Below are positions 1,581-18,833 of a DNA stretch of 21,112 nucleotides, in pieces. The position numbers and the translations under genes were made by a program. The stretch is from a virus, in the IMG/VR virus record IMGVR_UViG_3300012189_000012, positions 1-21,112 of that record. One strand, written 5' to 3'. Below the pieces are notes generated by a model, which saw nothing but the letters and a program-made list of their open reading frames with translations, did no database searches and was not told the DNA's origin. Each line of letters starts with the position of its first letter. Position 1 is the first letter of the stretch.

Positions 1581-1991
1581 ATGCAAAAACCATTCACCCT
1601 CACCGACGAAATGGCCCAGGAGCTTGCCAATGAAGTCTCGTCGCTCGCGCCCCAAGGGGATGAAGCAGCACATGACCCCACTGGAGCGCGGGCTTTCGCG
1701 CCAAAGCTACGCAGAAGGCAGATCGATCGACTACATAGCGAAAGCGATGCACCGAGACCATCGAACGATCAGCAGGTTGTTGAAGAAGATCCAATCAACC
1801 CAAGCCACTACCGACGACACCCAAGCGGAATAGAATGCATTGATATCACAGAACACATGCTCTTCAACCCAGGCAACGCGGTGAAGTACATCTGGCGGTA
1901 TATGGATAAGGGTGATCCAGTGGAGAACCTTCGCAAGGCACAGTGGTATTTGGAACGGGAGATATTGAGGCTGACTCGAGTTCCTCGATGA
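1581..1991 (+). CDS. DUF3310 protein with long N-terminal extension
   Basis: 136 residues from ATG 1581, with GGAG at 1570-1573, 7 bases upstream. The DUF3310 signature occupies about residues 71-131: DPINPSHY, then GIECIDITEHM, FNPGNAVKYIWRYMDKG and ENLRKAQWYLEREI. DUF3310 is common in phages, often near nucleotide or replication genes; its biochemical role is not settled. No ATG, GTG or TTG occurs in this frame between 1581 and the domain, so the first 70 residues must be part of the protein unless an unusual start is used. That extension looks low in conservation and overlaps a helix-turn-helix ORF in another frame. The stop TGA overlaps the next ATG (ATGA). Confidence 0.75.
   Translation: MQKPFTLTDEMAQELANEVSSLAPQGDEAAHDPTGARAFAPKLRRRQIDRLHSESDAPRPSNDQQVVEEDPINPSHYRRHPSGIECIDITEHMLFNPGNAVKYIWRYMDKGDPVENLRKAQWYLEREILRLTRVPR
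1672..1833 (+). CDS. Nested 53-aa helix-turn-helix ORF
   Basis: It lies wholly inside the DUF3310 gene, one frame over. The product (MTPLERGLSRQSYAEGRS, then IDYIAKAMHRDHRTISRLLKK) reads as a compact helix-turn-helix of the GcrA/resolvase-tail type: a helix, a turn after AEGRS, then IAKAMHRD and a recognition helix RTISRLLKK. An alternative ATG at 1660 adds four residues. AAGGGG at 1654-1659 lies 12 bases before ATG 1672, longer than ideal. The helix-turn-helix pattern is too good to dismiss, but overlap with a second coding frame lowers certainty. Alternatively it is joined to the N-terminus of the 1581 ORF by a +1 slip at CCCC near 1650. It could be a small regulator. Confidence 0.5.
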   Translation: MTPLERGLSRQSYAEGRSIDYIAKAMHRDHRTISRLLKKIQSTQATTDDTQAE

Positions 1992-3100
1992 CTAAGCCCA
2001 TCCTCCTCATCGGCGAGCAGCGCGGTGAAGCGGAAGCCCGGATCAATCGAACCTTTGTAGGCGCTACCGGTGCGGAGCTCCTCCGCATGCTTGCCGAAGC
2101 CAGTGTGATCTCCCTCACCAACCTTGATTCTGCCCACCTGCGTACCTTCTGGACCACCCGAGACCCATGGTCCCTCGATAAAATCTGGGAGAACCATCGT
2201 GAAACACTCATCGCCACCAACGTCTTCAACATCTACCCGCCCGGGAACAAACTCGAATACTTCTGCGGAGGGAAAGCAGCTGCCCTCCCAAACTACGCCA
2301 AGCTTCTCAAAGCCGGGTATGTTAGATCTGAGTTCGCCCCGGAACTGGATCGTCTGGGGGATGAAATCCTTTCTCATGATCCTAACCTCATTGTCGCTCT
2401 GGGGAATACTGCTATATGGGCTTTGTTGGGGACTACTGGGGTACGGAAACTACGGGGCACAACCGCTGTTAGCACTCATTGCGTTAGCGGGTATAAGCTT
2501 TTGTGCACTTACCATCCTAGCGCTGTTCACAGGCAATGGGAGTTGCGACCCACAGTAGTCTCCGACCTATCCAAAATCAACGATGAAAAGGACACCGCGA
2601 ATGTTGAACGCCCGCCAGTCGAAATTTGGACAGAACCCACGCTTGAAGACATCCAAACCTTCTTCGACAAGTTCGTTAGATTTGGACGTTGCCCTCTCCT
2701 TTCTATCGATATTGAAACAACTGGCACCCGGATTACCTGCATTGGATTCGCTCCCAGACCAGACCTTACACTCGTTGTTCCATTCGATGACGAGCGCGCA
2801 GAGTCGGGAAGCTATTGGGCTACTCCGCAGCTTGAACGACAATGCTGGCAGCTTGTTCGTGAGGTGCTTGAGGATAGCACAATCAAGAAGCTCTTCCAGA
2901 ATGGGATGTATGACATCGCCTTCACGCTTAGGAGTTACAAAATCAAAACGCTAGGTGCGATCCACGATACGATGCTATTGCATCACGCGTTACAGCCAGA
3001 GAGTTTGAAGAGCTTGGGGTTTCTGGGATCGATCTACACCAACCATGGACCGTGGAAATCGGAACGAAAGCGGAGTGATACAGTGAAGAGGGATGCGTGA
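1988..3100 (+). CDS. Uracil-DNA-glycosylase-like domain fused to DNA polymerase proofreading exonuclease (motifs I-II)
   Basis: 370 residues. ATG 1988 overlaps the previous stop (ATGA); the longer start at 1943 would intrude on DUF3310. Residues 1-195 match the family 4/UdgX-like uracil-DNA glycosylase fold: GEQRG (9-13) and FVG (23-25), TNVFNIYPPGN (77-87), and the HPS motif (176-178) in CTYHPSAVHR. The Cys of family 4 after NVVK is Asn here and the N-terminal CxxC is absent, so an iron-sulfur cluster is unlikely. Residues 236-350 are the DnaQ-like exonuclease of family A polymerases: motif I DIE (241-243), motif II N305-x3-D309 in FQNGMYDIAF, then HDTMLLHHAL. Exonuclease motif III is not in this ORF; it is in the next. 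This is a likely glycosylase/proofreading subunit of the phage replisome. Confidence 0.85.
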   Translation: MTKPILLIGEQRGEAEARINRTFVGATGAELLRMLAEASVISLTNLDSAHLRTFWTTRDPWSLDKIWENHRETLIATNVFNIYPPGNKLEYFCGGKAAALPNYAKLLKAGYVRSEFAPELDRLGDEILSHDPNLIVALGNTAIWALLGTTGVRKLRGTTAVSTHCVSGYKLLCTYHPSAVHRQWELRPTVVSDLSKINDEKDTANVERPPVEIWTEPTLEDIQTFFDKFVRFGRCPLLSIDIETTGTRITCIGFAPRPDLTLVVPFDDERAESGSYWATPQLERQCWQLVREVLEDSTIKKLFQNGMYDIAFTLRSYKIKTLGAIHDTMLLHHALQPESLKSLGFLGSIYTNHGPWKSERKRSDTVKRDA

Positions 3101-4650
3101 AGATCATTCACACCAACTCAACCACCCCAGCCGACATCAAAAACCAATGGGAGCGAGACCAAATCTACAACGGCCTGGATTGCGTCGTCACCCTCGAAGT
3201 CTTCAACGCAATCCATAGCCAGCTTGACGCAACCACCGCCAAGACCTATGCATTCTCCCGCGCTCTGCAAGGTCCGGTGTTGGAGATGAGATGCCGAGGA
3301 AGCTTAATTGATAACCACCGCAAACGTGAGGTCATAAATGAATTCCACGATAAAATCGATTATCTCGAACGCAGTCTTTCTCGTATCGTGCTGGACGGTG
3401 TGGGCATGCTCAACTTCAGCTGGCGAAGCCCTCCTCAAGTCATGGAGTTGTTTTATAATCATCTGCAAATCCCCACGATCAAGAAGCAAGGCCGCCCAAC
3501 AGCTGATCGCGATGCATTGGAGAAGGTCCGCGCCTTCACCGTAGCCAAGCCGATCGTGGCGCATCTGATCGCGCTGCGTGAATTGACGAAGAAGATCGAA
3601 GCCCTCGAAATGGGAGTAGACAATGACGGACGAATGCGAACATCGTACAACATCGCCGGAACGAATACAGGGCGCTTTAGCTCTAGCTTTAGCGAATTTG
3701 GCACTGGCGGAAACTTTCAGAACGTGGAGGAAAGTCTTAGAAGCATATTCATTGCCGATCGAGGATGTAAATTCGCCAAGTTCGATGCGAAGAGCGGTGA
3801 ATCCTACATCGTCGGAGCAATAGAAGGGAACCTTTTCAATGACTGGAGATACCTCGATGCTGTTGAGTCTGGAGACGTGCATACAGCTGTTGCTAGAATG
3901 TGCTGGCCGGAGCTTGGTTGGACGAATGATCTTAGAACGGACAGAGCAATCGCTGAACAACCCTTCTACCGACATTACGATTACCGCTTCATGTGTAAAA
4001 AGCTCGGACATGGTTCGAATTACGGTGGACAACCACACACCCTCGCCGAGCAAACCAAACTCCCTGAGCGAGTGGTCTCGCAGTTCCAGCCCAAATACTT
4101 CGGTGCTTTTCCTGGGCACCTTGAACGCCTTAGGTGGACCGACACTCAACTTAGTCGATTGGGATGCCTTACGACGCTTACAGAAAGAAAACGATGGTTT
4201 TTTGGCAGGCGAAGTGATCCTGCTACCCAACGGGAAGCTTATGCTTACGATCCCCAAGGAAGTCTTGCCGACATCGTGAATCGTGCCATGCTCCGCATCT
4301 GGCGAGCCCGAACAGCCGATGTGGTAATTGTTTTCCAAGACCACGATGCATTGACATTCATGTACCCCGAAGAGCGTGAGGACGAAGTCATCCCTGCGCT
4401 CCACTCGGCCCTAGGCGAAGATATTACCCTTCACAACGGTCGGGTAATGCGTATTCCATATGATTGCAAAACGGGATGGAACAAAGGAGAATACTGCTGT
4501 GGGGATCGAACCCAACCCGGGTGTGACCGATGTAACAAACAACAAAACCTCGACGGGCTCAGGGATTGGAAAGGAGGGGACCAACGGACACGCACTCCGT
4601 CGGAATCCGAGTTGGATAAACTTCTTCGTGGACTCAACCGCAAGACTTGA
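3097..4650 (+). CDS. Family A DNA polymerase catalytic subunit (carries exonuclease motif III)
   Basis: 517 residues. GTG start 3097 overlaps the previous stop as GTGA, implying coupled translation. Exonuclease motif III, YNGLD (24-28) followed by CVVTLEVF, opens the protein. The polymerase domain follows: TNTGRFSS (189-196), motif A with catalytic D230 in AKFDAKSGES, motif B KKLGHGSNYGG (301-311), and motif C QDHDA (414-418) with D417. GWNKGEY (460-466) marks the usual end of the fold. About 50 further residues (CCGDRTQPGCDRC, then NLDGLRDW and a basic tail) run into the next gene. It copies phage DNA; complete proofreading would need both ORF products or a joined form. Catalytic aspartates are intact, so it should be active. 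Confidence 0.93.
   Translation: MKIIHTNSTTPADIKNQWERDQIYNGLDCVVTLEVFNAIHSQLDATTAKTYAFSRALQGPVLEMRCRGSLIDNHRKREVINEFHDKIDYLERSLSRIVLDGVGMLNFSWRSPPQVMELFYNHLQIPTIKKQGRPTADRDALEKVRAFTVAKPIVAHLIALRELTKKIEALEMGVDNDGRMRTSYNIAGTNTGRFSSSFSEFGTGGNFQNVEESLRSIFIADRGCKFAKFDAKSGESYIVGAIEGNLFNDWRYLDAVESGDVHTAVARMCWPELGWTNDLRTDRAIAEQPFYRHYDYRFMCKKLGHGSNYGGQPHTLAEQTKLPERVVSQFQPKYFGAFPGHLERLRWTDTQLSRLGCLTTLTERKRWFFGRRSDPATQREAYAYDPQGSLADIVNRAMLRIWRARTADVVIVFQDHDALTFMYPEEREDEVIPALHSALGEDITLHNGRVMRIPYDCKTGWNKGEYCCGDRTQPGCDRCNKQQNLDGLRDWKGGDQRTRTPSESELDKLLRGLNRKT
4483..4489 (+). promoter_or_regulatory. Shine-Dalgarno inside polymerase gene deciding the ATPase start
   Basis: AAAGGAG at 4483-4489 lies 9 bases before GTG 4499, which is in the ATPase frame. 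The upstream in-frame ATG at 4460 has no comparable site. This favours GTG 4499 as the start of the downstream ATPase and means the two coding frames overlap by 152 bases. Confidence 0.65.
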
Positions 4651-6628: not shown

Positions 6629-7273
6629 TTATAAAGGCTTGTCAAACCACGATACTTCAGCTTCACGGCGGGCGGTTAACCCAACGTTCACCGCACCTCC
6701 AGCGTGGTTATACTGGAGGATATCTGCTTTGACTGTATCCCATTTGGCGGCTTTGACCGCTGCGCCGAGGGACTCATGTTCCCAGCCTGAGCCTGCGTTG
6801 TAGGTCAGGTCGGTCAGGGCTTGTTGGATGCCGATTGGGGTGTCAGCTGGGATCACTTGCTCGGCGAGTTTCCAGGCCTTATCGACCTCCACGGTTAGGC
6901 GGGCCAAGGCTTCGACCTCGGTGATGACTTCGGTTGGGGAGGTGGCCTTGGTGCCATAACCGATGGAGTATTGTTTGTAGTCCCAATAGGCCTTGGATCG
7001 GAAGCCTTCTTCCTTTTTGATATAGTTCACCAGACCCTGATCGACAATGTCAACCGGTTGGGTGGAAATCGGTGCCGGGGAAGGTACGGGGGGCGCAACC
7101 TTCCCCGGCCTCGGCACAGGTGGAGGTGGAGTGGAACCAACTGCCTCCGGAGCCTGCGCTCGAGCGAGTGCGCGATCGGTGACCCCGATCATGCGGATTA
7201 GGACGTAGATGAGAGCTAAGGATTGGATAGACAGCGCGCCGATTACTAGGACCAAGACGTATTCGTTCATCAT
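6629..7273 (-). CDS. Membrane-anchored GH24-type lysozyme (endolysin)
   Basis: 214 residues. ATG 7273 overlaps the stop of the giant virion gene (ATGA), with AAAGGAG 9 bases upstream; the next Met codon at 7270 is further away. Residues 5-29 form a strong N-terminal hydrophobic segment. A Pro-rich linker (about 45-72) follows, then the lysozyme domain to the end. The catalytic motif reads KKEEGFRSKAYWDYKQYSIGYGT: Glu and Asp nine apart as in T4 lysozyme, with Ser where T4 has Thr. LTDLTYNAGSG and LTARREAEVSWF are further GH24 signatures. It cleaves peptidoglycan at lysis. The segment may be a signal-anchor that keeps the enzyme tethered until release; it is more hydrophobic than classical SAR segments. 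Confidence 0.9.
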   Translation of the reverse strand: MMNEYVLVLVIGALSIQSLALIYVLIRMIGVTDRALARAQAPEAVGSTPPPPVPRPGKVAPPVPSPAPISTQPVDIVDQGLVNYIKKEEGFRSKAYWDYKQYSIGYGTKATSPTEVITEVEALARLTVEVDKAWKLAEQVIPADTPIGIQQALTDLTYNAGSGWEHESLGAAVKAAKWDTVKADILQYNHAGGAVNVGLTARREAEVSWFDKPL

Positions 7274-10200
7274 CGTTCCACTCTCCTTTGGGCCTCACCG
7301 TGGATAATCCCGCGGATGACTTCGTTGAGATTGCGCGGGTTCTGTTGGCGATTGTAGACGTCTAGGCCGAAGCGGGCTGCGTTGCCAATGACCTTTGGAG
7401 ACATACCAGTGGCTTCGCCAAGGACGGTGATGGTGTCTTGAACGGTCTTGCCTGCGTGTTCACGGGTCATGGAGCGGGATGGGTTTGTGACATCGCGGTA
7501 CATCTTCGCAGCGTCGTGGGAGAATGAGCTGAGTAGTCCAACACCTGGATCGTGGGCCGTGACTAGGCCGTGGATGAGGTCTCGGGCGTAGAGGACAGAG
7601 GATGAGATTCCACCTGAGGCTGCACTGGCAAGGTACGCAGGCCAGGATTCATTACGCTGGGTAGCATAGCTGCGGACCGCTTCCTCTATAATGGTGGGCC
7701 AGACAACATAGGTCATGAAATTGGCGACGAATGATGGGAGGTGGGCTGCTACCTTGGCGAGTTCCTTCTCCCGGCCCAGCTTCCACATATCATTGGCTTG
7801 ATAAGCGAGTTCTAGGCGACGCTGCATGGCAGTGCCGAAGAAGCCATAGACGGAGGTGAGGAAACGGTTAAGTTGGCCACCACCAAGGACCAAAGGCGGT
7901 TGGTTGGTGATGGCTGTGGAACCGTGGGCTCGACGTACTGCACGTTCACCGAGGGTTACAGCATCACCATGGGAGAGACCTTCACCTCGAGCTGTGTCAT
8001 AAACTGCTAGTGCGGTTGGCTTGGCAGAGACCATGTCGGACCATGCTACCCCAGCTGCACCCCATTGCATCATCTTGGCGCGGAGATTGGAGGTCTGCTC
8101 AAACTCATTCTGTTGAGCGCCAAACGTATCCTGCCAATGTCGTTCGCGGCGTTGGATCTCCTCAAAGTTGGCCATTACGAAATCATGGTCTTGAAGCGCG
8201 ATGTCGAGAGACTGACCATAGAGTGTATGCACAGCGTTAGCGTATTGCTTCACATCCACACCGCCAAACCTCGCGCGAAGGAACGGGACAATCCCAGCTT
8301 CTTTCATCGACCAAACCCAAGCTGTCGGCCCGTGCTTGGCGATGGTGCCGACATTGCCAGCAATGTAGGTGGAGGTTATGTTCTGCCGGAATTTCTCAAG
8401 GAATGAATTGGCGCGGGCTTCGTTCTTGGAGGCTGAGCCAGCTGAGCCTGAGATACGCTTTAGGTAAGGCATCAGGCCATCCGCGTATTCCTTGCCATAG
8501 TATTTGGCAACATCGGATTGGAACCGTCGATCCGCGAAGATCTTTTGTGTTTCGATGATGGGTTCGCGGAAGTTGATATCGTGGATCATTTGAACAAGCG
8601 AATTGGGAGTCATATCGAAGCGAAGATCCAGCGGGTAGATCGCGCCGGTCCGGGATTTGGTGTAGCCGTTGGCAGTGGCAGAGTGGTAGAAATCGGTGGA
8701 GTTGTAGACATCCTCGCGTTTGCCTACGTCTTTCTCATGCCATAGACCGGCGACATCTTGGGTCCAGAGATTGCGGATTGGGTCGCGCTTGAGGGGATGG
8801 TACCAGCCAGGGTAGGTGGCCTTGGTACCATCCGCGAAGGTGACTTCAATCGGCTTGAGGTTGATCTTCTCGAACGGTGCACCGACGATGCGTTCGTACA
8901 TGTTGCCGGAGAGTTTCACGTATTTGGTGAAGATATCGCCGAGTTTCTGGGCCCGATCCCAGTCAGCTTTGGTTGAATTGCGCCCAAGCCATTTCATCGC
9001 CGCTTCGGGTTCGATCCCATATCCGCCAGCGAGAACACGCAGGTTGGATTCGTTCCCAGCGTTGTTGATCATTTGATAGACATGGCCTTTGGTAAACCCT
9101 GTCCAGCCACCGGAGTCGGGTGAGTTTGGATCGAAGGTCAGCGGGTCGGCGAACGGAGCATCCACAAGCTTTGCTATATCCTTCGGCCGGTCAATCTTGG
9201 CAATCAGCTTAGAGGCCTCGCGGAGCATTGCGGATTCGCCATTGGCAGCTTTGCTTAGCGGATAGCTAAACGTCCGGTTGAATATCCCCCAAGGGTCATT
9301 CCGATCCCAACGATTGAACATGGTCTCCTTGGCGGTTAGGCCGTAGACAACGAGCCTTGGGAACTGTGCGAATGGGCCCGGTTCAGCTTTGGATGGGGTT
9401 GTGCCGAACGTGGAAAGCTTATCCCTCATCTCTTGCTTGGTCCCAACCAAATCCCGTGCCTCGCCTTCCACATAGATCTTCTTCTCATCTCGACCAGCTT
9501 TGATAAGCATGTCGATGGCGGATTTGAAATCTTGAAACTGGGAGTGGCTCAGTGTATCCAGCTTCTGCCGGAACCCAGCATCTTGGATAAACTCCGCGAT
9601 CGGCAAATCTCTCTGTCCGTTCCACTCCTCAGCCTTTTCACGTACAAACGCGGCAAGCGCCGTCGACGTCTGGCGGCCGAGATTCTCTTGCAGGTCTTGT
9701 ATGCTACGATTGACAGGATAACCCACCCGGTTAAGCAAATCATGAACCCAATTAGTGTAAGTCGTTGCGACACTGGCTACCTCTCGTTTGCGGAAGGTCT
9801 TGGCGGTGCGGTCGAGTTGGCGGCGATCTCGTTCGTAGGTTCGAGCAAGCTTGGCGGCTTCGAGGGAGTATTGGCGCTGTTGGGAAAGGCGATAGGCTTC
9901 ATCCCATTTGCCTTTGGCTCCGGCTTCCTCGATCTTCTTGCCGATCTTGAGAGCGTTCTGGAGCAAGCGATCGGATTTGATCTGGCCAGTGGGGACTTGG
10001 CTGAAGGCCTCTTTGACCATGCCTTTGACTTCGTCGTGGGTGAATGGAGGTGCCAATCCACCCTCACCACCTTTTTGTAAAGGCCGGAGCTTATTGCCAT
10101 ACTCCTCAGGCAGCTCGAAATTTCGGTAGCGGTTGTTGATGTCATCATATCCACTAGCGAGTTCGGGTTTGGTCTTCATCTCATCTTCAGGGATGTCGAC

Positions 10201-13200
10201 ATAACTAACCTTGCGATCACCGGTGCCATAGTTACGAGCATAGTCTTCTTGAGTAGCCACCCAACGTTTGCCACTAGGCTTCTCGTCGTAGTGACCATGG
10301 TAGAATCTAACCGCCCCAGGCTTGACTGGTTCGGTGGGCAATGCACCGGCCTTGAGTGCATAGGCGAGGGTTTCCTCGTGGACCAGCTTCATCTGGGTTT
10401 CGCTAAGGGCTTGGTCTTTGGCCTCCTCAAGGATGTGTGCTTCGCGGTCACCGAACTCTTGGTTCAATCGACGATCGGTTTCAACATCGATGAGGCGATT
10501 GAGGTAATCGCGAGAAGACATACCAGACCGACGCCGATCTTCGGTCATCATGCCGAGACGTTCGACCATGGCGTCCCCAGAAGTGTAGCCGAAGTGCGGA
10601 GCGAGTTCGTCTGGGTTGACGCCGTCCTTTTTCTGGATGTAGTCTTTTGGCAATCGGGCTTTTTGCTCATCGGAGAGATAGTCTGGGTGGAACTTGACGC
10701 CGTATTTTGTCATGAATTGATCAGTGGCGATATCGGGTCGGCCGGTGAGTTGCTCGCGGACCTCGTCGCGGAGGACGGTGCGACGATCTTTCCAATCTGC
10801 GTTGGATCGTCGCCGTTGGCGAAGTTCAGCTCTGCGCGAGCTGGCCTCGAAGTCTTCTTTATTCCGCTTTTCGATTAGCTTCAACATCCGATCCATGTGG
10901 GATTGGGTGACGCCAAGGGCTTTGCCGCGGTCATAGAGACCAAAGGATTCGCCTTCTTTAGTCTGGGCCAAAGGTTCATGGCCACCATCCAATCGTGCCT
11001 GGGCCAACGCTGGAGCTTCACCTTCCTCAGGCTCCAACTCACGCCTCCCAACCCGACCAACATCAATCTCCTTGAAGATATCCTCCCAGCTCAGGTCCTT
11101 GCCTAGAGCTTCATTGATCCGCCGACGCACACCTTCCATGAAATCTTTGATCTTCTGGAAGACTGTGTCGTCCTTGAGAACCTCCTCACCCTTGCGCCAG
11201 GATTGATAGGCTTCGGCGATGGCTTCCTCGTGTTGGACGTCTTTGGAGAAGTTCGAGTATCGGCCTTCGATGTCGAATTTCTTCAGCCAGCCTTGGTCCG
11301 TCGCGGCCTTGGCCAAAGAATCCCATTCTGCGTCGGTGAAGAAACCTTCTCGAGCAAGGAAGTGAATGGCTTCATGTCGCAGTGTGTCAACCGCACCTTT
11401 ATTCTCCATAGCCACAAACATCTTGGCTGTGGAGGGTTGGAACAATCCACGAACCAAACCACCGGCTTTGGGGTAGTAGATCGCCGAGGGTGTTTCCACC
11501 TTGGCTGTGGGAACGATCCGGCGAGCCTCGGCAAGCACAGCCTCGCGAGTAGCCTGCTCAACTGGTGTCCAACCAGCTTCGGGCTTTTGGAGAACTTCGA
11601 CGTTGTCGGAGATAGATTGCCAGTATGGTTGGAGGAGGTCGCGGAAGGTTTGGGGATCTTCGCCGAGTTGGAGCTTGACCGTTGGGATGGACTTCTTTGG
11701 ATCCATGATTACATGTTCGCCAGCAGCATCACGTGCGCCGGTTACTCGGTGACCAGTAATGGACTCAGCGTTGGGGAACATGGCTTTGAGCTGAGATTTG
11801 ATATCGCGGACTAGGCTGGGCCCAAGGAAGTTGGGTTGATAGAACCCTCGCTGTTGTGGACCAGCGTTGATCATTTCAATGTAAAGCTGTTTGCCATCTT
11901 TAGCTTCACTCAAGTTGATCTGACCTATGAGTGCGCCCGTTTCATCATGCATATCAATATCATGAAAGGGTGGTAGACCTTGCTTCTCATTGTAGTCAGC
12001 CTTGAGACTCTCAACTCGTTGTAGAGTGACCTTGCGATCGCCAGCCATGGCGAGGGGTTCGAGACCGGCCGATGCGCGGAGGGAAGAGACTGGATCGGCG
12101 ATGGCCTGCTTGGGTTGGGATTCAATCTTCATCTCGTCGAGAGTTGGCACTCCATCCCGAATGGAGATATGATCGTGTAGGGCTTTGTGGATGTCAGGTT
12201 CGGTCTTGGCAAGGTAATCGGCCAATGGGACGGAGATATCCGCGCCAGCCGCTTCGGCGATGGGAAGGGATTCGGTTATGCCTGGGACCCAGCCGAGGAT
12301 GCCGTCGTCGGGAGTGGGGGATTTGTCTCCGTAGAGTCCGCGGATGGCTTCTGCGTTGATTCGAATCGTGCGATCGCCAAGTGGGCCGCGGAGGAAGTTG
12401 TCGGCGAAGAGATCTGGGCTGCGTTCACGGGTCGCGGATTTGGCGGATTCGGACATTGCACCATCGAGGGCACGGATGTCTTCCCGGGCTTGGATTTCCT
12501 TGGCTTTGTCGATGAGTGGGTGAAGGCCTAGGGGAGGTTCGCGGCCGATCTGGGTCCACGGGTCGGCAAGTTGGAGACCGCTAGCGACGGAGCGGATGTG
12601 TTCCAAAGCCTTGGTGTTTTGTTCAACGCGCTTGAGTGGACCACCTTCTGCGTGGACGCCGATATCGCCCCGCATCATTGCCCACTCAGCCATCGCGGCG
12701 AGTTCGTTGGCTGGACCTTCGCCGAGGACGTGGGAGATGCCATCATGGCCGAGGGAGATGAGGCCACCGGCTGCTCGGGACATGAACTCAACCGGGGTGG
12801 CGATGGTCATAGCCAACGCACCCATCTCCGGATGCGACATGGCGAATTCAACATCACTCGGGCGGGAGAGGATTGAGGAACCTAGCGGAGCATCCCCATA
12901 CCCGCGCATGAAGGATTCGGACATCGAATCGGACTCTAGCCATTTCTGGAGTCGGGACTTCTGGCCAATACCTTCGAGAGATTGGGAAACGTTATCGAGT
13001 TGGCCCAAGTCGTCGTGGGAGATGCGGGCCGCGAGAGGATGGGAGTTGATGTAATCGACGATGTGTTCGTTGTCGTTGATGATCTGCGAACCCAGGGTTG
13101 CTTTGTGGGTTCGTTCGAAGCCGTCAACATCGCCGTAGATAGTAGTGGATGGAACTCCAGTTGCATCGGAGAGATCGATCGCACGCGCGGCTTGCTCTGG

Positions 13201-13278
13201 ATCGTCGTCAAGCGCAGCGGCGTTGGCGCGCTTGGCAGCACCAACCTCTTCGGCGAGGAAGTCGCTATAGTCGGTCAT
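7270..13278 (-). CDS. Giant internal virion protein (gp16 position, large polyvalent type) with metallopeptidase motif
   Basis: 2002 residues, against about 1318 for T7 gp16. It sits in the gp16 position, after gp15-like and before lysis genes, so it is probably packaged and ejected with the DNA. Visible parts: a conserved block with NFLRGPLGD and DISVPLADYLAKTEPD (about 290-385); a region resembling an acetyltransferase fold (about 420-520); a zinc-peptidase motif HEAIH (H635, E636, H639) with EEAIAEAY (684-691) as candidate third ligand; charged coiled coil (about 780-900); a segment with VRFYHGH near 990 resembling ADP-ribosyltransferase-like domains; and a long C-terminal region like LPD38-type domains, with a hydrophobic segment near 1842-1862. 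ATG 13278 overlaps the previous stop (ATGA). Metallopeptidase is supported by motif only; the ribosyltransferase call is weak. Confidence 0.85.
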   Translation of the reverse strand: MTDYSDFLAEEVGAAKRANAAALDDDPEQAARAIDLSDATGVPSTTIYGDVDGFERTHKATLGSQIINDNEHIVDYINSHPLAARISHDDLGQLDNVSQSLEGIGQKSRLQKWLESDSMSESFMRGYGDAPLGSSILSRPSDVEFAMSHPEMGALAMTIATPVEFMSRAAGGLISLGHDGISHVLGEGPANELAAMAEWAMMRGDIGVHAEGGPLKRVEQNTKALEHIRSVASGLQLADPWTQIGREPPLGLHPLIDKAKEIQAREDIRALDGAMSESAKSATRERSPDLFADNFLRGPLGDRTIRINAEAIRGLYGDKSPTPDDGILGWVPGITESLPIAEAAGADISVPLADYLAKTEPDIHKALHDHISIRDGVPTLDEMKIESQPKQAIADPVSSLRASAGLEPLAMAGDRKVTLQRVESLKADYNEKQGLPPFHDIDMHDETGALIGQINLSEAKDGKQLYIEMINAGPQQRGFYQPNFLGPSLVRDIKSQLKAMFPNAESITGHRVTGARDAAGEHVIMDPKKSIPTVKLQLGEDPQTFRDLLQPYWQSISDNVEVLQKPEAGWTPVEQATREAVLAEARRIVPTAKVETPSAIYYPKAGGLVRGLFQPSTAKMFVAMENKGAVDTLRHEAIHFLAREGFFTDAEWDSLAKAATDQGWLKKFDIEGRYSNFSKDVQHEEAIAEAYQSWRKGEEVLKDDTVFQKIKDFMEGVRRRINEALGKDLSWEDIFKEIDVGRVGRRELEPEEGEAPALAQARLDGGHEPLAQTKEGESFGLYDRGKALGVTQSHMDRMLKLIEKRNKEDFEASSRRAELRQRRRSNADWKDRRTVLRDEVREQLTGRPDIATDQFMTKYGVKFHPDYLSDEQKARLPKDYIQKKDGVNPDELAPHFGYTSGDAMVERLGMMTEDRRRSGMSSRDYLNRLIDVETDRRLNQEFGDREAHILEEAKDQALSETQMKLVHEETLAYALKAGALPTEPVKPGAVRFYHGHYDEKPSGKRWVATQEDYARNYGTGDRKVSYVDIPEDEMKTKPELASGYDDINNRYRNFELPEEYGNKLRPLQKGGEGGLAPPFTHDEVKGMVKEAFSQVPTGQIKSDRLLQNALKIGKKIEEAGAKGKWDEAYRLSQQRQYSLEAAKLARTYERDRRQLDRTAKTFRKREVASVATTYTNWVHDLLNRVGYPVNRSIQDLQENLGRQTSTALAAFVREKAEEWNGQRDLPIAEFIQDAGFRQKLDTLSHSQFQDFKSAIDMLIKAGRDEKKIYVEGEARDLVGTKQEMRDKLSTFGTTPSKAEPGPFAQFPRLVVYGLTAKETMFNRWDRNDPWGIFNRTFSYPLSKAANGESAMLREASKLIAKIDRPKDIAKLVDAPFADPLTFDPNSPDSGGWTGFTKGHVYQMINNAGNESNLRVLAGGYGIEPEAAMKWLGRNSTKADWDRAQKLGDIFTKYVKLSGNMYERIVGAPFEKINLKPIEVTFADGTKATYPGWYHPLKRDPIRNLWTQDVAGLWHEKDVGKREDVYNSTDFYHSATANGYTKSRTGAIYPLDLRFDMTPNSLVQMIHDINFREPIIETQKIFADRRFQSDVAKYYGKEYADGLMPYLKRISGSAGSASKNEARANSFLEKFRQNITSTYIAGNVGTIAKHGPTAWVWSMKEAGIVPFLRARFGGVDVKQYANAVHTLYGQSLDIALQDHDFVMANFEEIQRRERHWQDTFGAQQNEFEQTSNLRAKMMQWGAAGVAWSDMVSAKPTALAVYDTARGEGLSHGDAVTLGERAVRRAHGSTAITNQPPLVLGGGQLNRFLTSVYGFFGTAMQRRLELAYQANDMWKLGREKELAKVAAHLPSFVANFMTYVVWPTIIEEAVRSYATQRNESWPAYLASAASGGISSSVLYARDLIHGLVTAHDPGVGLLSSFSHDAAKMYRDVTNPSRSMTREHAGKTVQDTITVLGEATGMSPKVIGNAARFGLDVYNRQQNPRNLNEVIRGIIHGEAQRRVER

Positions 13279-15584: not shown

Positions 15585-16000
15585 TATGCATCTCCACGGA
15601 TTGTGAAGGAGAGGATGTCTCCTGTGGATGTCGGCTCAAACTCCGCGCCAAGCCATTTTAGCCAGCGCTGGGATAGAACAGCACGCCGCTTGCAATGGCC
15701 GATGATGGTTGGATAGCGCTTGAGCATTTCCTTGACCTGAATCTGGCTGCGCCGGATGAAGGTGAACTGCTGCGCAATCGGGCCTTGGGACCACATCCAA
15801 AGGTAAGCTTGGTTGGAGATAAACGATCCCGGGATGAGTCCCCAGCAGCAGACGAACTTGTCATCGATGAAACCCGCGTAGACTTGGCCGAGTTTGTGGC
15901 AGTAGTCCATCATGGCGGTCTCTCGCTCGGTCAATACGTTACCGGACTGAGCACGAATGAAGTCTGAGATCGGGAATGGCACGGTCTCAATCCTATGCAT
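15584..16000 (-). CDS. gp13-like protein with GNAT-type fold
   Basis: 138 residues from ATG 16000, the same length as T7 gp13. The longer reading from 16084 lies inside the tail gene and is rejected. It begins MHRIETVPFPISDFIRAQ and has AGFIDDKFVCCWGLIPGSF, then ISNQAYLWMW and a helix KEMLKRYPTIIGHC, the beta-alpha order of N-acetyltransferase-like phage proteins (DUF2833 type). Such proteins are needed for virion assembly in T7 relatives; acetyl transfer is not established. The classic acetyl-CoA loop (Q/RxxGxG/A) is not visible, so activity is doubtful. It overlaps the tail gene by 8 bases and the next gene by 1. Confidence 0.8.
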   Translation of the reverse strand: MHRIETVPFPISDFIRAQSGNVLTERETAMMDYCHKLGQVYAGFIDDKFVCCWGLIPGSFISNQAYLWMWSQGPIAQQFTFIRRSQIQVKEMLKRYPTIIGHCKRRAVLSQRWLKWLGAEFEPTSTGDILSFTIRGDA

Positions 16001-18833
16001 CGCCAACCTCGATTTCTGGGATGACCCCGAGGATTGAGGCGGGATAGGGATTGGGCTGGGTGATGAAGTATTGACCAAAGACATCCCAGTCAGGGTCGAT
16101 GATCATACGTGCGTCGGAGGTGACAAGGCCGGTGACGAGGGTGTTGGACATGGTGCCGACGTTGTTGAGGATTAGGTCTTGCATGGGTAGGACTGTGGCG
16201 AGAGTTTTGCCTGCGGATAGGCCCAGGGTGTCTTTGACACGAGTGGTTACGGCTGCGACCTTCTTGCGCTTGCCTTGGACGGTTGGTTGGCCAAGATCGA
16301 GGGCGAGAGTTTGGAGCTGTGGAAGGAAGGCTAGGCCGACGGTTACGATGGAAGCGGATGGGATGGTGGTGAGGCCGGTGGTACCGCCAATGCCAAAGAC
16401 AAAGGTGCCTGAGACCGGCATGGTGAAGTTGATCACAACGCCATCGGCAACACCGGTTACGGGCTGACCTCCAAGATGCTGGGCACCGGAGAAGGTAACA
16501 GCTGGAGCGCCGTTGTAGCCAATCCCTGCATCGACCTGCCAAGAAGATTTGTAGTCATTGGGATAGAAAAGCTCAACAAAGCGTTCGATGTATTGAATGG
16601 TATTGCCGTTAATGGTTCGTTGGACGACATGATAGACCGCGTCTACGGTCCCAATCGAAGCTGATTCCGGGATCGTGGCGATGGATTGGAATGTACCTTG
16701 GGTGTCAGAGTGGGCCCAAGCAAGCATTTCTTGGTCTTTGACAAAGCAAAGGGAGAGGAGCTGGCCATCGTTGCGGACGGCCCAGACGGTGTGGAAGGGT
16801 TCTTCGGCCCAGGCCCATTCTTTGAGGGTGAAGCTGTAGAAGAGATGACTTGATAGAATGGAGATATCGGCGCCGACGTAGTTGTTCAGATAGAAATTAA
16901 AGGCAAGGTCACGGACGATGGAGCCTTTGGCTTGGATGTAGAGGATGTCGGATGGGGTGACGATGGGTGGAAGGTCAGCCGCACCAGCGTAGCCTTGGGA
17001 GTTGGCTACGATGCCGAGCGCGGAGATGGGTGAGCCAGAGGTGCCTCCGTTGATAAGCCAAGCGCCTTTGTCGGAAAGGACGATAAGACCTTGAGAGACC
17101 GGGATTAAAGATTTGATGGTGTTCAAGACAGTGTTGGTTAGGGTTTCTTGAATAGCGTCATCTGGTTGGAGGGGGAATGAGACGTTGTAGTTAAACAACG
17201 ATCCGGGTTGAGAGAAGTTCATTTGTGACGGAGATAGGACCGGCGCTGCGAGGATCAGGCGTTGTTGGAATAGGCCCGGGGTGGTTGGGTTGCCTGCGGA
17301 GGGGGCGCCAAGGACGGCGGTGGCTGCGGCTGTGCCATAGGAGATGCCTACGGTTGGTGGGGTGGTGTAGGCTGTGCCAGGGGAGGTAACACCGATTGAT
17401 GAAATGCCGTAGGTAAGGCCGAAGGTGGCGCCGGCACCTATCCCTGTTAACGCTGCTGACCCTGCGGGATTGAGTGGAGTTGAGCCGACTGATATGGTCC
17501 CTCCATTTGTAATAGTCACGCCAGTAAGGACACCACCGATAGTAATGCTGGTAACTTGTAAATAGACACCGCCAGTTACGAATAATATATCGCCCACCGC
17601 ATATCTAGAACCGGCGCTGTTAATTATGGCACTGAAGCATGTAAGGAATGCAGTTGCTGCTGCACCAGAGCCGCCACCACCGGTGAAAGACACAGTTGGT
17701 ACAGGATTGCCGCCTGCGCCGCCGTAGGAGCCTTGGTTTGTGACGTTTACGGTTTGGACACCAGTTCCAGAGAATGGGTTCTCGGGGATTTGTAGACCTT
17801 GGGAGAAGTCAGGGGTGATATTGCTGTCATTAAACGCGGTTCCGGTACAGTTGCCAATGAAGCCGAACTGAGCACCGATTTGAACAGTAGCACCACCGCC
17901 ATAGAAGGGCTCGGCTTTGTAGATATTGAAGCTAACCGCAGCGGGGCTTATACCGTTGATGTTAATAGTTATAGTACCTGGATTGGTACGGATGTCTTGT
18001 AAATTAACTACATTGCCTGGCGGTGATGGAGTACTCTCTTGGCCATTGATGTCTACCTGAGTGACTTTGTATGCGTAGCTAACAACGCCAGCTGCGAGGG
18101 AGGTGCCGATGCTGGCGATGCCCGGTGCGGCGATTGTGGCACCGATTACTATTGGAGCTAGGGTCCAGTTGTTGGCAGAGACTAGCGTGAGCACGTATGA
18201 CGGATAGTTCGGATGGCAGATGTACATCTGGTTGACGTTCTGGACGAACTTCAACTTTGCCAGTTCAGCGGCTTGGTAAGGGGAGGTTATGGTGTAGACC
18301 CGAGCAGCGGTTCCACCAGAGGTGTAGGCGGTGTAGGTGGTAGAATTGACCGGGTTGCCGAAAAGATCGTTGAGCTGGAAGGTATTGGCGGCAGCTCCGG
18401 CGACGATGTAGTAGTTGCCATTGACTTGGGTCATACCGGCTACGTTGGAGATAAGGATCCAATCGCCGTTGGAGTAGCCGTGGGCCGTGTCGATGACAAC
18501 GGCTGGATTGGCTTGGGTTATGTTAGAGATGGTTGTGGGAGCTTGAAGAATCGGCGCACCATTGTTGAAGAACCGAAGATAGCCTTGGCCAAACTCAAGG
18601 ATGTAGGTAACGGCGAAGCTGGCTTGGAAAGGGATGATGCGGACGGTGAGATTGGAGAAGGTCTTGAGGATATAGCGGGTTCCTGGGCGGGTAGTTGCGC
18701 CTCCGCGATAGTCGACGAAGAAGTTGCGGAGAAGAGCGGCGCCGGAGTGGTATTTGGCGAGATCGACGCGAGCGTTAAGGGCTGGCGCCCATTCGCCTGA
18801 GTTGAAGGAGGTTTGGATTACTGGGTTGGACAT
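15993..18833 (-). CDS. Tail tubular protein B (nozzle), gp12-like
   Basis: 946 residues (T7 gp12 is 794). The N-terminus, SFNSGEWAPALNARVDLAKY, then GAALLRNFFVDYRGGATTRPGT, is the hallmark of podovirus tail nozzle proteins. Residues about 102-178 form an FCCH-like beta domain (HGYSNGDWILISNVAGM, then VNGNYYIV). A Gly/Thr/Val-rich beta region (about 355-515) with GGGGSGAAATAF and INSAGSRYAVGD looks inserted; around 17450-17640 the DNA appears more AT-rich than its flanks. After it, the nozzle sequence resumes (QQRLILAAPVLSPSQMNFSQ). The protein forms the distal tail tube through which DNA and internal proteins leave. No Shine-Dalgarno is evident at ATG 18833, 3 bases after the upstream stop; coupling is likely. 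Confidence 0.92.
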   Translation of the reverse strand: MSNPVIQTSFNSGEWAPALNARVDLAKYHSGAALLRNFFVDYRGGATTRPGTRYILKTFSNLTVRIIPFQASFAVTYILEFGQGYLRFFNNGAPILQAPTTISNITQANPAVVIDTAHGYSNGDWILISNVAGMTQVNGNYYIVAGAAANTFQLNDLFGNPVNSTTYTAYTSGGTAARVYTITSPYQAAELAKLKFVQNVNQMYICHPNYPSYVLTLVSANNWTLAPIVIGATIAAPGIASIGTSLAAGVVSYAYKVTQVDINGQESTPSPPGNVVNLQDIRTNPGTITININGISPAAVSFNIYKAEPFYGGGATVQIGAQFGFIGNCTGTAFNDSNITPDFSQGLQIPENPFSGTGVQTVNVTNQGSYGGAGGNPVPTVSFTGGGGSGAAATAFLTCFSAIINSAGSRYAVGDILFVTGGVYLQVTSITIGGVLTGVTITNGGTISVGSTPLNPAGSAALTGIGAGATFGLTYGISSIGVTSPGTAYTTPPTVGISYGTAAATAVLGAPSAGNPTTPGLFQQRLILAAPVLSPSQMNFSQPGSLFNYNVSFPLQPDDAIQETLTNTVLNTIKSLIPVSQGLIVLSDKGAWLINGGTSGSPISALGIVANSQGYAGAADLPPIVTPSDILYIQAKGSIVRDLAFNFYLNNYVGADISILSSHLFYSFTLKEWAWAEEPFHTVWAVRNDGQLLSLCFVKDQEMLAWAHSDTQGTFQSIATIPESASIGTVDAVYHVVQRTINGNTIQYIERFVELFYPNDYKSSWQVDAGIGYNGAPAVTFSGAQHLGGQPVTGVADGVVINFTMPVSGTFVFGIGGTTGLTTIPSASIVTVGLAFLPQLQTLALDLGQPTVQGKRKKVAAVTTRVKDTLGLSAGKTLATVLPMQDLILNNVGTMSNTLVTGLVTSDARMIIDPDWDVFGQYFITQPNPYPASILGVIPEIEVGDA

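Follow-up and report, generated by a model that had tools for sequence, protein, structure and literature searches.

The DNA polymerase gene of the phage analysed here is divided into two open reading frames, and the division falls inside the 3'-5' exonuclease domain. The window, i.e. the whole stretch of DNA analysed, comprises 21,112 nucleotides of the IMG/VR virus record IMGVR_UViG_3300012189_000012. The same split point was found in all of the 156 distinct viral or MAG contigs carrying both halves. Judging from the sequences, the two coupled polypeptides very probably come together as a single UDG-exo-pol enzyme, with a proofreading site to which both contribute. The phage lineage probably has no DNA polymerase other than this split one, which is present as two cistrons.

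The upstream half, ORF1, extends from an ATG at 1988 to 3100 on the plus strand (370 aa), and is composed of a UDG-like domain and the first part of the exonuclease domain. The Pfam profile UDG (PF03167) was matched by residues 4-186 with an E value of 3.7e-12 (46.9 bits against a cut-off of 24.3). Together with an HP[SA] motif, in which H176 is found in 140/144 split loci, this match places ORF1, as far as can be judged from the profile and the motif, in the UDG superfamily. DNA_pol_A_exo1 (PF01612) was matched by residues 234-346 (E 4.3e-7), covering only profile positions 19-123 of 173. The downstream half, ORF2, starts with a GTG at 3097 and ends at 4650 on the plus strand (517 aa). It has a leader of about 23 aa, exonuclease motif III, and a family A polymerase domain, the last matched by DNA_pol_A (PF00476) at residues 78-443 (E 3.2e-32; 112.3 bits against a cut-off of 34.3). 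The two ORFs cover successive parts of PHROG 17, a phage DNA polymerase family: ORF1 matches 547-787 and ORF2 matches 807-1232. An exonuclease domain of the PF01612 type within one polypeptide was not found, motif III being in ORF2, and this was likewise the case in the 156 loci. The proposal of the initial annotation, a polymerase split inside its exonuclease domain, was thus borne out by the partial PF01612 match of ORF1 and by the same split in every two-half locus.

The two ORFs meet in a GTGA start/stop overlap at 3097-3100 on the plus strand, in which the TGA at 3098-3100 terminates ORF1. The ORF2 frame is closed upstream by a TGA at 3076-3078, and the two frames are jointly open only over 3079-3100. 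The last part of ORF1, HGPWKSERKRSDTVKRDA (3044-3097, plus strand), is a new C-terminal tail of the N half. In the tail comparison across loci, an ending of the form T-[IV]-K-R-D-x-stop was common in the lineage, and the amino acids of the tail match those of close relatives despite high dS. The leader of the C half, MKIIHTNSTTPADIKNQWERDQI (3097-3165, plus strand), is absent from fused relatives and is 19-29 aa long in distant split loci. The window is a metagenomic contig for which there are no reads to inspect, so that an error of sequencing or assembly, or a decaying pseudogene in this contig, had to be considered. The same GTGA at the same codon was found in an independent contig from another metagenome (L027), and the same split in 156 loci including a cultured phage. 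The low dN/dS and the invariant catalytic residues described below also argue against it, and the probability of such an error or decay is close to nil. An indel restoring one continuous ORF, which the initial annotation had taken as the decisive counter-evidence, is in effect excluded by the independent split relatives.

The catalytic residues of the exonuclease are present at the positions that the initial annotation had given. Motif I, D241-I-E243 (DIE), is at 2708-2716 (D241 at 2708-2710, E243 at 2714-2716) and motif II, D309, is at 2912-2914, both in ORF1. Motif III, YNGLD with Y24 and D28 (residues 24-28), is at 3166-3180 in ORF2. All three, on the plus strand, are invariant in 144/144 split loci, and D28 is replaced by H in one locus of the first set of split loci. 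The Pol I-type DEDDy residue set is therefore complete, but it is divided between two ORFs. In the polymerase domain of ORF2, the residues of motifs A, B and C of family A were all found. The motif A aspartate D230 (3784-3786, plus strand), both residues of motif C, H416-D417 (HDA; 4342-4347, plus strand), and the motif B lysine K301 are conserved in 144/144 split loci, and the motif B tyrosine Y309 in 142/144. The residue following the motif C aspartate (window 4342-4350) is Ala rather than the usual Glu, with Ala in 129/144 split loci; this Glu is mostly missing from the fused outgroups, too. Among close relatives of the window, nearly every segment, whether before or after the junction, had a dN/dS of about 0.03-0.2, and values of up to 0.31 were obtained against the more distant L035. 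By these sequence comparisons, both halves are under purifying selection, including both new ends at the junction.

Because all of the exonuclease active-site residues are kept on both sides of the break, the two pieces very probably must come together to work. Y24 and D28 of the C half would have no known use without the partner. A different reading would be that the halves stay apart: the C protein would then be a polymerase lacking exonuclease activity, and the N protein would only bind or repair DNA through its UDG-like domain. There are PolA enzymes whose exonuclease is inactive or missing, such as divPolA1 (PMC11348598), and the C protein of the window was predicted to fold well alone (pLDDT 84.4). 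However, neither D241, E243 and D309 nor Y24 and D28 make a full site alone, and this reading leaves their invariance in 144/144 loci and the purifying selection on both new ends unaccounted for. It is considered unlikely.

The fold was examined with locus L105, whose halves share one frame that is interrupted by a single TAG. The read-through chain was modelled with AlphaFold2 for the fold only; as both halves are in one chain, the model says nothing on the binding of separate chains. One complete Klenow-like chain was obtained, with a pLDDT of 84 and a pTM of 0.79. The pLDDT was under 50 at residues 357-366, and the split is located at residue 365/366. Alignment with Klenow fragment 1kln by VIA-align gave a Z score of 27.8 and an rmsd of 4.0 over 548 residues, with model residues 206-841 placed onto chain residues 324-928. 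The model and this alignment indicate that the joined halves would make a complete exo-pol fold, broken in a poorly ordered loop. When the C half of the window was modelled alone, its first ten residues were coil, and the leader corresponds to a strand (369-372) in the L105 read-through model. This hints, with the reservation that the L105 model is one covalent chain, that the leader might dock on the N half.

The search with ORF2 gave 28 viral contigs, in each of which the C half begins at the same place. Further members came from searches that started from ORF1, from Kuura, and from two alignments, the second one deeper, and from scanning bacterial genomes. After removal of duplicates, the 156 loci consisted of 91 in a first set and 65 in a second set; a few further contigs were left out of this count since one half lies beyond the contig end. 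The MAG contigs L131-L133 belong to the split set. No fused gene was found inside the split clade among the 156 contigs with both halves. The cultured member is Caulobacter phage Kuura (OQ067476), a podophage with the same split point and the same architecture at about 33% identity. Two small ORFs (612 bp) lie between its halves, and its N half is annotated as a hypothetical protein. Kuura has been cultured to about 10^10 pfu/ml (PMC9959647). The word "split" is absent from the Kuura paper (PMC9959647), and by word search this split is unmentioned in Nasko et al. 2018 and in the 2024 polymerase-swapping paper.

The Kuura genome and 11 contigs of 47-51 kb have one PolA locus each, and neither PolB nor a second PolA locus was found in any of them. 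The exo1 profile was matched once in ten of the 11 contigs and was below detection in Kuura and L109. From the single PolA locus and the lack of PolB in these twelve, it is likely that no other recognised protein does this work. A second polymerase making the split one dispensable was ruled out in Kuura and the 11 contigs by the same result.

The two ORFs correspond to one ORF of fused relatives. One-ORF UDG-exo-pol polymerases were found in Microcystis phage Mel-JY34, MW202489, vir526, and a Desulfofustis phage, as well as in the MAG contigs L134, L136, L137, and L140; the fused outgroups include OP947158. A smaller tree, built from 89 split and 8 fused sequences, groups all split sequences in a single clade with a support of 0.99. 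In a larger tree of 144 split and 9 fused sequences, they again form one clade, with a support of 0.70, and parsimony required one split/fused change. The simplest history is a single old fission in the ancestor of a large tailed-phage lineage, as far as these trees tell. With support falling from 0.99 to 0.70, two fissions at the same place could also have occurred. The distance between motifs II and III is 79-93 residues in split proteins and 57-70 in fused ones. Therefore, the fission added about 20 residues, namely the tail of the N half and the leader of the C half. The fission site would be the loop that connects motif II of the exonuclease to motif III. The fused polymerase of Mel-JY34 agrees with the split lineage in the order of its domains and in the catalytic residues of its exonuclease, whereas polymerases of this type are encoded by one ORF and have about 20 fewer residues between the two motifs.

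The halves abut or nearly abut in 51 of the 156 loci, and at least 25 nt lie between them in the other 105. Among the 51 bare loci, a 4-nt overlap was found in 25 and a 1-nt overlap in 17, and the halves of the rest are 0, 3 or 24 nt apart. In the 105 insert loci, the intervening DNA is 25-1702 bp long and usually consists of whole genes. Besides many small unknown ORFs, the inserts of the first set include HNH genes (L017, L019, L020, L088, and HNH only in L010), an HNH gene with an AP2-like tail (L073), endonuclease VII-like genes (L011, L041, L045, with a remnant in L028), and LAGLIDADG genes (L036, L085). The nucleases of L036 and L017 were below Pfam cut-offs and were assigned through matches with PHROG endonuclease families. 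The longest junction insert of the first set, at L110:1798-3501, has 1702 bp and three ORFs. A further 59 insert ORFs, mostly from the second set, include DUF7768 (13), the nucleoside deoxyribosyltransferase family PHROG 355 (16), HNH_3 (7), RNase H, and a YfbR-like 5'-deoxynucleotidase. Nucleoside deoxyribosyltransferase-like genes (DUF7768, PHROG 355, PHROG 12607) were seen repeatedly between the halves, for example at L128:3061-3495 and in loci of the range L212-L290.

This variety bears on how the halves could be rejoined. A single fused polypeptide made by programmed frameshifting or stop-codon readthrough might be imagined, since the two frames of the window differ and share 4 nt, and the halves of L076, L079, L096, and L105 are in one frame with a single TAG between them. 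However, the relative frame of the halves varies among relatives and DNA lies between them in 105/156 loci, so that a frameshift or an indel is excluded as the general explanation for the family. In agreement with the initial annotation, no classic slippery heptamer is visible in 3079-3100. A fused product is thus highly improbable. Rejoining through an intron or a split intein, by RNA or protein splicing, was judged to be just as improbable. Group I introns in genes of HMU phages and a split intein in MIJ3 are known for phage polymerase genes (PMC6892783), and homing-endonuclease-like genes are found at the junction in relatives. On the other hand, neither the window nor any of ten relatives gave an Rfam match at the gathering threshold, no intein domain was found in either ORF with Pfam, the approximately 20 extra residues between motifs II and III are too few for an intein, and the bare loci have no room for an intron. 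Two separate polypeptides that assemble are therefore retained as the preferred reading.

Sister loci carry different nucleases (L073 and L085; L036 and L041). The changes between inserted and bare states, 24 including the fission, are about as frequent as those of randomly shuffled labels, with a mean of 29, which indicates a fast turnover of the inserts. The junction has probably gained and lost whole genes repeatedly after the fission, some of them homing-endonuclease-like. Parsimony favours an insert as the ancestral junction state by two steps. The bare overlap of the window may follow the loss of junction genes; with a difference of two steps only, this is a weak inference. Of the N-C junctions, 47/79 have inserts; the figures are 8/79 for the junction that follows downstream and 12/27 for the upstream DUF3310-N junction. 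The N-C junction as a unique insertion hotspot is only partly true, and the 12/27 inserts at the DUF3310-N junction indicate that the operon gains cistrons elsewhere, too.

As to the origin of the break, and in a way compatible with two assembling polypeptides, the insertion of a homing endonuclease gene might have caused the fission, as with Aeh1 nrdA/mobE. In relatives, four kinds of nuclease gene are located exactly at the junction, and the insert state was reconstructed as ancestral, by the two steps noted above. The window has no homing endonuclease gene at the split, only the 4-nt overlap, and a minority of relatives has one. In the deepest of the branches examined (Kuura, L130, L132), the inserts are small ORFs or RNase H, without recognised endonucleases. 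Genes of nucleotide metabolism are no less common than endonucleases in distant members, and endonucleases may have entered a gene already split. We regard this origin as plausible, with the chances leaning against it.

A possible start signal for the downstream half is found in the last codons of ORF1. The Shine-Dalgarno-like word AGAGGGA (3087-3093, plus strand) is spelled by the codons AAG AGG GAT. Arg at the fourth codon from the ORF1 end, stop included, is encoded by AGG in 47/77 cases, compared with 7.5% elsewhere in these genes; the p value of 3e-33 is not corrected for relatedness and is indicative only. AGG and the next codon spell AGGGA just ahead of the ORF2 start. A word of this kind upstream of ORF2 was found in 20/39 bare loci, compared with about 7% at internal ATG/GTG codons, and in only 10/52 insert-bearing loci. 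Since about half of the bare loci and most of the insert loci lack such a word, initiation of ORF2 must work otherwise there. The varying frames, the DNA intervening in 105/156 loci, and the AGGGA before the start all favour termination-reinitiation over frameshifting, as the initial annotation had preferred. We infer that translation of the two halves is coupled. One message would give two proteins: the N protein would carry the UDG-like domain with motifs I and II, the C protein motif III with the polymerase. A ribosome stopping at the TGA would restart on the overlapping GTG, aided by the AGAGGGA inside the end of ORF1. The N and C proteins would then fold together into a Klenow-like, presumably active UDG-exo-pol enzyme with a proofreading site built from both polypeptides.

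Split phage enzymes have been reported before, and those nearest to the present one in their mode of working are 43A/43B and Aeh1 nrdA/mobE. Gene 43 is split into 43A and 43B in the T4-like Aeromonas phages 25 and 44RR. The split is associated with the homing endonuclease seg43 in phage 25, whereas 44RR has a non-coding insert; the phage 25 products co-purify and have polymerase activity (PMC2988022). As here, a replicative phage DNA polymerase is encoded by two cistrons. However, 43A/43B belongs to family B and to some T4-like phages, whereas the present polymerase belongs to family A, carries a UDG-like domain, and is split in the whole sampled lineage. In the present lineage the cut is inside the exonuclease domain, often without an insert. 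In Aeh1, nrdA is split by mobE, and an essential enzyme works from two ORFs with an HNH homing endonuclease between them (PMC2988022). The likeness is an essential enzyme in two ORFs. Aeh1 concerns a ribonucleotide reductase in which an endonuclease insert split the gene, whereas the inserts here vary and are absent in a third of the loci. In MEP401-type OM43 phages, PolA is split over ORF13 and ORF15 with a small ORF between them (PMC10580990). There the cut is inside the polymerase domain and the exonuclease domain is in the first ORF, in contrast to the cut inside the exonuclease domain here. By these sequence comparisons, the present split appears to differ from the known cases in family, in the exonuclease-domain cut, in age and breadth, and in the insert-free window.

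Three polymerases with other interruptions were also observed. At L053:1727-4364 (MW202554, ctLwi270), a related polymerase is split at about the exo/polymerase border with the exonuclease in the first ORF, which is a second, different fission. At L051:2956-6090 (Vibrio phage VS-ABTNL-3), the break in another related polymerase falls within the polymerase domain, and the parts are separated by a 184-aa ORF without a Pfam match. At L155:3005-6247, in a Nealsonbacteria MAG contig, a fused UDG-exo-pol polymerase has an in-frame insert of about 970 bp in the polymerase domain; the insert matches LAGLIDADG_3 and is a probable intein.

Replicative polymerases in two pieces have been described here and there among phages. 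In the present case, the break passes through a catalytic domain, seems to be ancient, and is found in all sampled members of a large lineage of environmental phages. Should the halves assemble as proposed, the enzyme would be a naturally occurring family A polymerase of two subunits, with one proofreading site formed by both. The split also accounts for annotations such as "hypothetical protein" and incomplete polymerase, as in Kuura. An essential gene has long stayed in two pieces while its break is a landing place for other genes. More speculatively, and with rather low probability, proofreading in this lineage could be a function of a subunit that can detach. How often the polymerase proofreads would then depend on the amount of the UDG-exo half or on its binding, and junction cargo would shift the ratio of the halves and tune fidelity. 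Since Kuura is cultured, the claim of a two-subunit enzyme is directly testable.

Two other ORFs of the window were recorded. On the minus strand at 7270-13278, a 2002-aa ORF is located on the virion-gene strand. On the same strand, at 15993-18833, a 946-aa tail protein (PHROG 376) is encoded, of which residues 114-179 match the eukaryotic E1_FCCH domain.
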